This document shows, one piece after another, positions 32,888 to 45,359 of a DNA stretch of 64,000 bases; the stretch's first letter is position 1, and the number at the start of each line of letters is the position of its first letter. The position numbers and the translations under genes are program-made. The DNA is taken from contig NZ_CP029551.1 in the NCBI RefSeq assembly GCF_003173735.1, positions 5,037,001-5,101,000 of the forward strand, given 5' to 3'. The notes below the pieces were generated by a model that was given only the letters and a program-made list of their open reading frames with translations, was not told the DNA's origin and made no database searches. This DNA comes from Methylobacterium radiodurans (lineage in GTDB: Bacteria; Pseudomonadota; Alphaproteobacteria; Rhizobiales; Beijerinckiaceae).

Positions 32888-33349
32888 TCAAGCCTGCACC
32901 GTCCAAATCTGGGATCGAACACTCTCTGATGGCGCACCGGATCGATCCCCGATGAGATCGGGCGCGTCGATAAACAGATCACCGTCCACGATCCGAACGG
33001 GATAGGTGCGCAGTGGGCGGAACGACCAGCCCGGAGAAACCGCACCATCCGCGAGCGCGAACGAGGCTTGGTGATGGGGACAGTGCAGCCGGCCCGCCAC
33101 GCAGCGCCCCCTGGCGAGATCGGCGCCCTCGTGCGGGCAGGTCCGCTCGAGCGCAAAGATCCGGTCGCCATCCTGCACGATGAGGAGAGGCTGCCCGCCG
33201 ACCGTGACCGGGACGATCCGGCTGCTCCCGAATGCCGCCAGGGCGGCAACGCGGATCCAGGCGGCTTCCTCAGCGCGCGGATGGTCCGAGTCCGACGTTC
33301 CCTCGGGAGCGGGCACGCCGTCAGGCGCCGAGATAGGCTGCCCGGACAT
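32888..33349 (-). CDS. Rieske [2Fe-2S] ferredoxin-like protein
   Basis: The 153-residue protein is a single Rieske domain: TCPHEGADLARGRCV gives the C-x-H pair and RLHCPHHQASF the C-x2-H pair, with GWSFRPLRTYPV after. The start lies 29 bp inside the end of livF, indicating cotranscription. It lacks a membrane anchor and an oxygenase domain, so it is a soluble electron carrier or a regulatory redox protein. Next to the importer and molybdenum hydroxylase it could serve the hydroxylase or another oxygenase (inference). Confidence 0.88.
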   Translation of the reverse strand: MSGQPISAPDGVPAPEGTSDSDHPRAEEAAWIRVAALAAFGSSRIVPVTVGGQPLLIVQDGDRIFALERTCPHEGADLARGRCVAGRLHCPHHQASFALADGAVSPGWSFRPLRTYPVRIVDGDLFIDAPDLIGDRSGAPSESVRSQIWTVQA

Positions 33350-34025
33350 GGGGATCCGCGATCAGGGCGTCGCCGGAGCCTTCGAGCACGATGCGGCCGG
33401 TCTCCAGCAGGTAGGCGTGATCGCAGAGTTCGAGGGCCGCGAAGGCGTTCTGCTCGACCAGAAGCACGGTGGTGCCGGCATCGCAGATCGCCCTGATCAC
33501 CGCGAACATGCGCTCGACGATGTTGGGGGCAAGCCCGAGGGAGGGCTCGTCGAAGAGCACGAGCTTCGGGCGCGCCATCAGGGCGCGCCCGATCGCCAGC
33601 ATCTGCTGCTCGCCGCCCGAGAGCGTGCCGGCCGCCTGGTCGCGGCGCTCGGCGAGCCGCGGGAACTCCCCGTAGATGCGCTCCAAGTCCGCCGCAATGC
33701 CCGCCCGGTCGCGGCGGAGATACGCGCCCATGGCGAGATTCTCGGCGACGCTCATCTGCGGGAAGACGCGCCGCCCCTCCGGGCAATGGGCGATGCCTGC
33801 GGCCAGGATGCGGCGGGGCTCGGCGCCCGCGATGTCGCGGCCATCGAACCGGATGGTGCCGGACCGGGCCGGGACCAGCCCGGAGATGGCGCGCAGCGTC
33901 GTCGACTTGCCGGCGCCGTTCGCCCCGACGAGGGCGACGAGCTGGCCCTCGCGCACCTCGATCGTCAATCCCTTCAGGGCGGTGACCTGGCCGTAGCCGC
34001 AGACGAGGTCGCGGATCTCAAGCAT
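33321..34025 (-). CDS. livF: branched-chain-amino-acid-type ABC ATPase LivF
   Basis: The start at 34025 is chosen for AGGAGG six bases upstream. The 234-residue product has Walker A GANGAGKSTTLRAIS, signature LSGGEQQMLAIGRAL, Walker B KLVLFDEPSLGLAP, and HCPEGRRVFPQMSVAENL, typical of LivF. It energises uptake with LivG. Overlap with the livG stop (8 bp) and with the Rieske gene start shows one operon. Confidence 0.93.
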   Translation of the reverse strand: MLEIRDLVCGYGQVTALKGLTIEVREGQLVALVGANGAGKSTTLRAISGLVPARSGTIRFDGRDIAGAEPRRILAAGIAHCPEGRRVFPQMSVAENLAMGAYLRRDRAGIAADLERIYGEFPRLAERRDQAAGTLSGGEQQMLAIGRALMARPKLVLFDEPSLGLAPNIVERMFAVIRAICDAGTTVLLVEQNAFAALELCDHAYLLETGRIVLEGSGDALIADPHVRAAYLGA

Positions 34026-34845
34026 GGGCGGCCTCCTGCGCTTGGCTGGCCGTCCGGCGGGCGGCGCTGCCCTGGCCGAGATAGGCCTCAATCACCGCCG
34101 GATCGCTGCGGATCCGGTCCGGGGGCCCTTCCGCGATCAGCCGTCCGTAGTTCAGCACGACGATGCGGTCGGAGACCTCCATCACCATCGGCATGTCGTG
34201 CTCGACGAGAAGGATGGTGACGCCGCGCTCGCGGATCTGGTGGATCAGGCGCACGAAGACGCGGGTCTCCGAGGCGTTCATCCCCGAGACGGGCTCGTCG
34301 AGCAGCAGCATGGCGGGCTCGGTGGCGAGCGCCAGCGCGACACCGACGAGGCGCTGCTCGCCGTAAGCCAGGCTGCCGGCCTTCTCCTGGGCTCGGCCCC
34401 CGAGGCCGACCCAGTCGATGAGGGCCGCGGCGCGCTCCCGCAGGGCGCGCTCACTCGCGCCCGCGCGGCCAAGCAGCGCGTCGAGGAGCGGTGCCCTGCC
34501 GATGCCGGGTGCTCCGGCCGCGCCCTGCCGGTGCAGGCCGATCATCACGTTGTCGAACACCGTGTCGTCCGGGAAGACGCTGGTGCGCTGGAACGTGCGG
34601 GCGAGGCCGAGCCGGGTGATCTCGTGCGGCTGCAGCCCCCGCAAGGCGGTTCCCCGGAAGCGGACCTCGCCCTGGCTCGGGCGAAGGAAGCCCGTCATCA
34701 CGTTGAAGGCGGTGGTCTTGCCGGCCCCGTTCGGGCCGATCAAGCTGACGATCTCGCCTTCCTGAACGTCGAAATGCAGGTCGGCTATGGCGACGAGGCC
34801 GCCGAAGCGCACGCCGACATGCTCGACCGAGAGGATCGCACTCAT
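34018..34845 (-). CDS. livG: branched-chain-amino-acid-type ABC ATPase LivG
   Basis: The 275-residue product has Walker A GPNGAGKTTAFNVMTG, the LivG-type R-T-F-Q block LGLARTFQRTSVFPDDTVFDNV, a signature degraded to LAYGEQRLVGVA and Walker B AMLLLDEPVSGMNASE, and ends with a typical C-terminal tail (DPAVIEAYLG). LAYGEQR in place of LSYGxQR is normal for LivG. It overlaps livM by 4 bp. Confidence 0.92.
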   Translation of the reverse strand: MSAILSVEHVGVRFGGLVAIADLHFDVQEGEIVSLIGPNGAGKTTAFNVMTGFLRPSQGEVRFRGTALRGLQPHEITRLGLARTFQRTSVFPDDTVFDNVMIGLHRQGAAGAPGIGRAPLLDALLGRAGASERALRERAAALIDWVGLGGRAQEKAGSLAYGEQRLVGVALALATEPAMLLLDEPVSGMNASETRVFVRLIHQIRERGVTILLVEHDMPMVMEVSDRIVVLNYGRLIAEGPPDRIRSDPAVIEAYLGQGSAARRTASQAQEAAHA

Positions 34846-44752: not shown

Positions 44753-44764
44753 GAAGCATGCTTC
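44753..44764. promoter_or_regulatory. palindrome GAAGCATGCTTC, candidate MarR operator
   Basis: A perfect 12-bp palindrome lies in the 137-bp divergent region between the amidohydrolase and MarR genes. The surrounding DNA is AT-rich (TTTCCAAAAAAGG on one side, GTATTTTCAG on the other), as expected for promoters. Control of both genes by the MarR protein is inferred from position. Confidence 0.5.
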
Positions 44765-44825
44765 GTATTTTCAGAGGTAGCATGATCCGTGCCAGTGTGA
44801 GCTGGTGAAGGAGGGGGGGGCGGCG

Positions 44826-45359
44826 ATGGTTGATGGTGCAGGAAAGAACGAGGGTGACGCTTTCGCACCCGACAGGCACCCGGAACTCCGGAAGCCTGAA
44901 GTCTCAGAACGATCCTGGCCGCTGGCCGAACGTCCTGGGTTTTTGATTCGGCGGTTGCACCAAATACATGTCAGTCTTTTTGCCGAACGATGCGGCGCGT
45001 TCGGCATTACGCCTCTTCAGTACAGCCTTTTGTCGGAGTTGTTGTCTCGGATAGAGGCCGATCAAACGACGCTAGCGAACGCTGTAGCTCTGGATAGAAC
45101 GACGACGACGGGAGCGCTCCGTCGCCTCGAAGCGCGCGGCCTGGTTAGCCGGACGACCTCGACGGCGGACCGTCGCGCACAAAGCTGTCGATTGACCGAA
45201 GAAGGAATTAAAATTCACAATGCCATGGCCGATGCCGCCCGGCAGGCTCATGAAGCGACCGTGGCTGTCCTCTCCTCAGGAGAGCGGCAGATTCTCACCC
45301 AGCTCATGAAGAAAGTCGCCGTTGCGCACGGCCAACGTCATGAGGCCGCGGACCTGTGA
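44826..45359 (+). CDS. MarR-family transcriptional regulator
   Basis: The 177-residue product contains the winged helix of MarR proteins: FGITPLQYSLLSELLSRIEADQTTLANAVALDRTTTTGALRRLEARGLVSR, then the wing TSTADRRAQSCRLTEEG. The start at 44826 follows AAGGAGGGGGGGG; the spacing is long, so a GTG at 44805 remains possible. It diverges from the catabolic operon and probably represses it in the absence of the substrate. The gene's GC content is lower than its neighbours. Confidence 0.92.
   Translation: MVDGAGKNEGDAFAPDRHPELRKPEVSERSWPLAERPGFLIRRLHQIHVSLFAERCGAFGITPLQYSLLSELLSRIEADQTTLANAVALDRTTTTGALRRLEARGLVSRTTSTADRRAQSCRLTEEGIKIHNAMADAARQAHEATVAVLSSGERQILTQLMKKVAVAHGQRHEAADL

Follow-up and report, generated by a model that had tools for sequence, protein, structure and literature searches.

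The closest described counterparts of the locus analysed here are quinoline 2-oxidoreductase (Qor; 1t3q), an enzyme with a three-subunit layout, Mo-Cu CO dehydrogenase (CoxMSL with CoxG), the five-gene Liv/Urt importers for branched-chain amino acids or urea, the amidohydrolases of the PRK09237 family, and the Rut and oxidative (barbiturate) pathways of pyrimidine breakdown. The locus lies in a 64,000-nucleotide stretch of Methylobacterium radiodurans DNA (hereafter the window; positions 5,037,001-5,101,000 of the 5.54-Mb single-contig genome), in which 12 open reading frames (ORFs), recognized from an ORF list and domain profile searches, span positions 32888-45359. Eleven of them, on the minus strand, encode two hydrolases, a molybdenum hydroxylase, a Liv-type importer and a Rieske-type protein, and a gene for a MarR-family regulator diverges from them on the plus strand (Table 1). 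The gene set is real, conserved and under one operator motif. The component families are known; the combination, the operator-linked genes and the substrate are undescribed in the literature that we found. We read the set as a putative catabolic operon, induced by its substrate, that serves a pyrimidine-type nucleobase or a closely related cyclic ureide, most likely C5-substituted, and give this reading slightly under an even chance; the wider class, a nucleobase-like cyclic ureide of any kind, is probable, if not strongly so.

Comparison with described systems

All domains of a xanthine oxidase family enzyme are present in the molybdenum large subunit, the FAD subunit and the 2Fe-2S subunit. 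The closest solved large subunit is that of Qor (489 bits), with which the locus shares the three-subunit layout, the ATNKCPI..YRGV stretch and a Glu near the C-terminal GxGE motif; it differs in that the 2Fe-2S subunit bears a fused CoxG domain and that an amidohydrolase and an importer are encoded in the same operon. The fused domain (residues 242-385) matches the solved chain 8uds_D (E 9.9e-12) and, together with a related large subunit (8uem, 415 bits), recalls Mo-Cu CO dehydrogenase. However, the large subunit scores 522 bits against a cut-off of 950 for CODH_aero_grp5 and reads PYRGVARTG where 1ffu and 1n5w read YRCSFR, a loop type that we take to carry the Cu-binding Cys of that enzyme, and a CO dehydrogenase was rejected for lack of that stretch. 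The xanthine dehydrogenase large-subunit models NF043082 (341 against 780 bits) and TIGR02965 (169 against 849.5 bits) were not passed.

PF02738, the molybdopterin-binding domain, occurs at 11 loci of the home genome, each time above the cut-off. Plasmids of 457-658 kb (NC_010510.1, NZ_CP090580.1 and NZ_CP090350.1) carry the large-subunit gene in Methylobacterium radiotolerans and M. oryzae. On pSymA of Sinorhizobium meliloti (11980-19101), genes for a large subunit of 74% identity and for FAD and 2Fe-2S subunits adjoin genes for a binding protein and a diaminopropionate ammonia-lyase, and F420-related genes (cofC, cofD and an LLM oxidoreductase gene) are located close by; the stretch shown has no annotated amidohydrolase, and its best score for the operator described below is 2.4 bits.

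The importer has the five-gene architecture of the Liv/Urt systems. In a comparison that covered the binding protein, LivM, LivG and LivF, no Liv-specific model was passed (PRK15404, 130/477; PRK11300, 252/362; PRK11301, 107/366; and PRK11614, 259/441 bits), and the binding protein fell below the curated cut-offs for both branched-chain amino acids and urea.

The amidohydrolase passes PRK09237 (441.9 bits, cut-off 371), the sole NCBIfam model passed among the matches listed, and is 93-94% identical to Methylobacterium proteins. Its solved homologues are 8wzy (149 bits) and 2ogj (135 bits), the latter a relative of the PRK09237 family. His66, His68, Lys165, His198, His234 and Asp293, presumably residues with metal roles, are invariant in a 19-sequence alignment. 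A characterized relative (COG3964) is an acetyl-(R)-mandelate esterase. The label 'dihydroorotase-like', given to this protein in an earlier reading of the sequence alone (the sequence-only reading), is a weak one, as the dihydroorotase models among the matches listed are all below the cut-off (best, PRK09357.2-6, 60/728 bits). The alpha/beta hydrolase matches Lipase 1 (9n8r, 183 bits), 2pbl (81 bits) and kynurenine formamidase (4e11, 44 bits); it does contain the HGGYW motif, but with these scores its earlier designation as 'kynurenine-formamidase-like' is a weak label too.

The resemblance to the Rut and barbiturate pathways lies in the pyrimidine-type permease, the deaminase and the ureide chemistry of related loci. 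In contrast to those pathways, the operon has neither a RutA gene nor a barbiturase-type gene, and the genome has a separate rut operon. No RutA-type monooxygenase is found among the domains of the operon, the one RutA match of the genome being at G000:C1:461798-462862, and the barbiturase-type (AtzD/TrzD) family PF09663 has no match in the home genome.

Conservation of the gene set

With start codons chosen by the analyst wherever the longest ORF extends further, 8 of the 10 adjacent minus-strand pairs overlap (by 1, 4, 4, 4, 4, 4, 8 and 29 bp), and two gaps, of 42 bp before the binding-protein gene and 69 bp before livH, flank the binding-protein gene. All twelve genes were found at the places and with the domains given in the sequence-only reading, and the overlaps of 1-29 bp that it described are seen in these eight pairs. 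The CoxG domain of the 2Fe-2S subunit and the palindrome described below had escaped that reading.

In total, 41 genomes were searched with the alpha/beta hydrolase and 20 regions were fetched, of which 8 (L029-L033, L039, L041 and L042; L030 ends short of the MarR gene) hold the set in the same order and 12 contain a hydrolase homologue without the rest of the set. A larger sample was obtained by an amidohydrolase alignment scan of the genomes of named species and consists of the best 80 of at least 440 confirmed relatives (L181, L182, L183 and L185 duplicate L075, L080, L125 and L123, respectively, and were left out of the counts). Many of these loci are truncated at the 10-kb flank or at a contig end, where missing Rieske or late Liv genes do not indicate loss. 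A MarR homologue is present in all 80 loci and is divergent beside the amidohydrolase gene in 79, the exception being L124, in which it sits behind the 2Fe-2S gene. The large subunit was found in 76 loci (L111 and L114 are short contigs, and it is absent in two Jiella loci) and the binding protein in 68. The two Jiella loci retain the genes for MarR, both hydrolases and the Rieske protein, with no molybdenum enzyme within the stretch covered.

The order amidohydrolase-Mo-FAD-FeS-binding protein-LivHMGF is kept in 64 of the 80 loci. The alpha/beta hydrolase gene follows the amidohydrolase gene in 23 of these and is not there in 41, 40 of which have the Rieske gene as well. Fifteen loci from Bradyrhizobium or Rhodopseudomonas carry the alpha/beta hydrolase gene beyond the Rieske gene, on the opposite strand. 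Genera with the set include Methylobacterium, Azorhizobium, Xanthobacter, Hansschlegelia, Methylopila, Chelatococcus, Bradyrhizobium, Rhodopseudomonas and Tardiphaga. Because the order is kept across genera, the arrangement goes beyond chance, and the genes form a conserved unit. With a threshold of E 1e-100, the amidohydrolase occurs in 21 of 297 genomes sampled from the order and in 11 of 398 sampled from the phylum.

Alpha/beta hydrolases 70-80% identical to that of the window were also found outside the operon in Methylobacterium relatives (L034-L038 and L040), whose 19.9-kb stretches contain no further operon gene (E 1e-8, at least 40% of the query). Several of these loci share recurring neighbour ORFs, carbonic-anhydrase-like and M20-peptidase-like by eye. 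In Bradyrhizobium sp. 138 (L139, 5786-18358), the hydrolase adjoins a second molybdenum-hydroxylase-like ORF, a nitrilase-like ORF and a polyamine-type ATP-binding cassette (ABC) system, again by eye.

A predicted palindromic operator in the divergent promoter

The region between the MarR and amidohydrolase genes contains a palindrome with the consensus AAAATACGAAGCATGCTTCGTATTTT and 13-nt arms at 44746-44758 and 44759-44771. After removal of identical stretches (one species can still contribute several), all 93 intergenic regions match at least 13 of the 20 core positions and 76 match at least 16, compared with a maximum of 13 in mononucleotide-shuffled sequences. With a weight matrix built from the same sites that it scores, 79 of the 80 named loci show a site above 12 bits no more than 600 bp from the amidohydrolase start, L124 again being the exception. 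In the home window, the site scores 31.7 bits and the next best -1.5, and a search of the home genome for the 16-base core, allowing two mismatches, gives a single hit, the 44749-44768 region. A palindrome located in a divergent promoter and conserved across species, this element is a predicted operator, and its single place in the genome suggests that the importer and the enzymes most likely share one regulated promoter. Co-regulation of the importer and enzyme blocks, on which the sequence-only reading had staked its proposal, is likewise favoured by the one operator motif and the conserved order.

General promoter and terminator scans yielded results close to chance (1 promoter, 0.4 expected; 4 terminators, 3.2 expected). 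The MarR gene has a second ATG at 44826, preceded by a purine-rich stretch. On a Geminicoccaceae plasmid (L193), variant operator-like palindromes occur at 3136, 7572 and 7781, with scores of 22.1 and 21.3 bits in the divergent stretch between genes for an amidohydrolase and a thiamine pyrophosphate (TPP)-requiring protein and 11.8 bits near an enoyl-CoA hydratase gene.

Genes linked to the operator in other genera

A scan of the fetched loci longer than 5 kb for additional sites (cut-off, 12 bits; those closer than 420 bp to an amidohydrolase start left out) yielded 32 sites. A gene for an NCS1-family permease adjoins the MarR gene in 27 named loci, 26 from Bradyrhizobium and one from Tardiphaga (L128); its start is preceded by a site of 24-32 bits in all 26 Bradyrhizobium loci and by a weak one (12.3 bits) in Tardiphaga. 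Locus L184 shows the same arrangement with a site of 29.3 bits. In Hansschlegelia quercus (L080), a 25.3-bit site precedes a run of genes for a GMC oxidoreductase, an aldehyde dehydrogenase, an NCS1 permease (PF02133, 165.5 bits, above the cut-off) and a cytosine deaminase. The deaminase passes PRK07572 (798 bits, cut-off 438) and aligns over its full length with the Escherichia coli enzyme, keeping the AFPQ and GHD stretches. Both Hansschlegelia copies (L080 and L180) have Cys as the residue after GHD, a position (Asp314 in E. coli) that is presumably adjacent to C5 of the base.

The composition of this run could also indicate the pyrimidine of thiamine, hydroxymethylpyrimidine, which would be degraded by oxidation of its CH2OH group, deamination, ring hydroxylation, opening to an N-acetyl product and removal of the acetyl group by a deacetylase-type reaction. 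Alcohol- and aldehyde-oxidizing enzymes, a permease and a deaminase behind one operator would all serve such a route; the hydroxymethylpyrimidine transporter model CytX does match the permease, at 91 bits and thus below its cut-off of 310, and the model passed by the amidohydrolase is named 'amidohydrolase/deacetylase'. However, the deaminase keeps the residues that we take to read a 2-oxo group, the best matches of the GMC protein are choline dehydrogenase models, below the cut-off, and the urea and allophanate genes of related loci would be superfluous, which makes this substrate highly improbable.

A second Hansschlegelia locus (L180) also contains genes for the NCS1 permease, the deaminase and a GMC oxidoreductase, together with a urea carboxylase gene and UAAP1/2 a few kilobases from the amidohydrolase gene. 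In L115 and L116, weaker palindromes (14.9 and 15.8 bits) precede a run in which a nitroreductase-like gene, scoring below the PRK10765 cut-off, is accompanied by ABC genes of the amino-acid type and by UAAP genes; L115 shows RidA as well. In L115, an NCS1 gene is positioned directly behind the hydroxylase genes in place of the missing orthologous importer and is followed by Liv-type genes with 30-43% identity. Release of guanidine by the pathway is suggested by the pairing of UAAP1/2 with urea carboxylase in L180 and by the UAAP genes of L115, L116 and L124; on the other side, no operator precedes the UAAP and urea carboxylase genes of L180, and those in L115 and L116 are the weak ones just given.

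Ureide-linked neighbours of distant copies

Eight distant loci (L171-L178) encode amidohydrolases 56-62% identical to that of the window (five aligned). Seven of them, all but L177, contain an AllG-family gene, and the four that were scanned with Pfam match PF06545. An allophanate hydrolase gene is located 6-8 kb away in L171, an amidase (PRK08310 above the cut-off, AtzE models below it) is encoded with an AtzH-like protein in L172, and a 2-oxoglutarate/Fe(II) oxygenase with a short-chain dehydrogenase in L173. A phosphoribosyltransferase gene recurs in L070, L071, L171, L174, L175 and L176. A dihydropyrimidinase gene (above the cut-off) is found in L077, with which 12 Bradyrhizobium loci were grouped by blastp, and a gene of the Asp/Glu/hydantoin racemase family in L087 and five further loci. 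A Paraburkholderia plasmid copy is accompanied by a DUF1116 (AllG) gene, with rutB-like and hydantoinase/oxoprolinase genes about 10 kb off, and a Pacificitalea plasmid copy by DUF1116 and Liv genes. It is established for these families that they have ureide, acyl-urea or nucleobase chemistry in common.

Several of these neighbours would also suit hydantoin or creatinine, i.e. deamination to hydantoin, C5 oxidation giving a parabanate-type ring, ring opening to oxalurate and cleavage: AllG (an oxamate carbamoyltransferase family), the amidase and AtzH-like pair, the dihydropyrimidinase, the racemase-family gene and the genes near the Paraburkholderia copy. None of these genes is preceded by an operator site above 12 bits, and C5 of hydantoin is an sp3 carbon, which we take to be unusual for this hydroxylase family, so that we regard this route as improbable.

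Plain uracil or thymine would enter an oxidative route in which the molybdenum enzyme converts uracil to barbiturate, the amidohydrolase opens the ring in place of barbiturase, and the hydrolase cleaves ureidomalonate to malonate and urea. The cytosine deaminase and NCS1 permease behind the operator in L080, the urea carboxylase of L180 and the allophanate hydrolase of L171 would fit this scheme. Also in its favour, PydA is above the cut-off in 3 of 21 amidohydrolase-positive and 104 of 276 amidohydrolase-negative genomes of the order sample (Fisher p 0.034, kinship uncorrected); this tendency is confounded by kinship, because none of the 12 genomes of the host family and none of the 10 of another family (f18) has PydA above the cut-off, with or without the operon. 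Against uracil, a rut operon is already present in the home genome (RutA, 695 bits; neighbours by eye), uracil needs no alcohol- and aldehyde-oxidizing genes, and RutA passes its cut-off in 7 of 21 amidohydrolase-positive genomes compared with 2 of 21 negative ones (Fisher p 0.13; the negative genomes of the RutA and PF09663 scans were hand-picked from families also holding positives), which is not a pattern of replacement. Plain uracil as the sole substrate is therefore less likely, and we consider the uracil/thymine route quite unlikely.

A plain N-heteroaromatic compound or lactam, such as a quinoline- or pyridine-like plant compound, would be in line with the sequence-only reading and is suggested by the Qor relationship of the large subunit, by the Liv importer used in Methylobacterium and by the lack of any nucleobase gene in the operon of the window; the NCS1 and deaminase genes would then have been recruited elsewhere for substrates of their own. 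Yet two other lineages have nucleobase-type genes behind the same operator motif, and distant copies repeatedly have ureide genes nearby; this alternative appears rather unlikely.

Proposed substrate and pathway

The reading as a pyrimidine-type nucleobase or cyclic ureide is favoured because NCS1 permease, cytosine deaminase, dihydropyrimidinase, AllG and allophanate hydrolase genes occur as neighbours or operator-linked genes elsewhere. A substrate narrowed to a C5-modified pyrimidine of the methyl- or hydroxymethyl-cytosine/uracil type is a tentative and rather doubtful proposition. Still more specific, and unlikely as a whole, is an undescribed oxidative pathway for 5-methyl- and 5-hydroxymethyl-cytosine or -uracil from plant DNA, in which a molybdenum hydroxylase with a built-in CoxG domain would deliver electrons to quinone, an enzyme of the amidohydrolase superfamily would replace barbiturase, and a MarR regulon would be shared across Hyphomicrobiales.

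Several observations weigh against the nucleobase or cyclic ureide reading. The associations with NCS1 and deaminase genes lie outside the Methylobacterium window, and the only PF02133 permease gene of the home genome is located elsewhere without an operator, its neighbourhood showing no link to the operon by eye; the Methylobacterium substrate could therefore differ. The L080 permease reaches 156 bits, where TIGR00800 has a cut-off of 353, and the grouping of the Bradyrhizobium copies with it is by blastp only. In L180, no operator site precedes the NCS1/deaminase gene run. The importer types vary among loci (Liv, NCS1, amino-acid type and Opp). In four Methylobacterium operons (L058, L061, L062 and L065), the alpha/beta hydrolase gene is missing between its neighbours, and this enzyme may thus be dispensable. 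The ureide genes of L171-L178 are linked to the set by neighbourhood alone, and no operator above 7 bits was found in these loci, so that their MarR proteins may read another site.

In the proposed pathway for a pyrimidine or cyclic ureide, MarR would occupy the palindrome and repress both its own gene and the operon until a pathway compound binds. The Liv-type ABC system would bring the compound in, and in other genera an NCS1-family permease with the same operator would stand in for it or supplement it, as judged from the motif. From its family and motifs, the Qor-type enzyme is predicted to hydroxylate a ring carbon next to N, with electrons passing through the 2Fe-2S and FAD subunits and then probably to quinone via the fused CoxG domain. 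The amidohydrolase would open the oxidized ring at an amide bond, the alpha/beta hydrolase would split the resulting acyl-urea or acyl-amide, and the Rieske protein may act as an electron carrier.

The broader proposal of the sequence-only reading, that the genes together serve the catabolism of an N-heterocycle or cyclic amide, gains support from the one operator and the conserved order. That reading recognized no known purine, nicotinate, hydantoin or caffeine cluster, and no matching one was found in the literature searched. An assigned pathway or substrate for this gene set was not found in that literature either, which was mostly non-subscription, and a published description may exist; the available portions of PMC13054789 and PMC12746152 contain no description of the cluster.

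Features of the locus

Table 1. Genes and predicted operator of the locus (positions in the window)
Feature	Position	Strand	Evidence
MarR-family regulator, divergent from the operon	44805..45359	+	PF01047, 48.3 bits
Putative MarR operator, core of palindrome AAAATACGAAGCATGCTTCGTATTTT	44749..44768	.	position weight matrix, 31.7 bits; inverted repeat 85% complementary
Amidohydrolase, PRK09237 amidohydrolase/deacetylase type	43405..44688	-	PRK09237, 441.9 bits; PF07969/PF01979; 427 aa
Alpha/beta hydrolase, HGGYW and GWSAG motifs	42503..43405	-	PF20434, PF07859
Molybdenum hydroxylase large subunit, quinoline 2-oxidoreductase type	40110..42506	-	PF02738, PF20256, PF01315; 1t3q_B, 489 bits
FAD subunit of the hydroxylase	39247..40113	-	PF00941, 157 bits
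2Fe-2S subunit with C-terminal CoxG (SRPBCC) domain	38009..39250	-	PF00111, PF01799, PF06240
Periplasmic substrate-binding protein, Liv/Urt class	36818..37966	-	PF13458, 232 bits
LivH-type permease	35876..36748	-	PF02653, 144 bits
LivM-type permease	34842..35879	-	PF02653, 142 bits
LivG-type ATPase	34018..34845	-	PF00005, PF12399
LivF-type ATPase	33321..34025	-	PF00005; best NCBIfam PRK11614 LivF, below cut-off
Rieske-type 2Fe-2S protein, final gene of the operon	32888..33349	-	PF00355, 54.8 bits; CxH and CxxH motifs

Biological implications

The operator offers a direct handle on the function of the set, as the genes linked to it elsewhere narrow the candidate substrates to a testable few, and the fused CoxG domain provides a simple test case for the coupling of a molybdenum hydroxylase to quinone. 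The breadth of the set, over Methylobacterium, Bradyrhizobium, Azorhizobium, Xanthobacter and Rhodopseudomonas, suggests that the substrate is probably common in soil or on plants.

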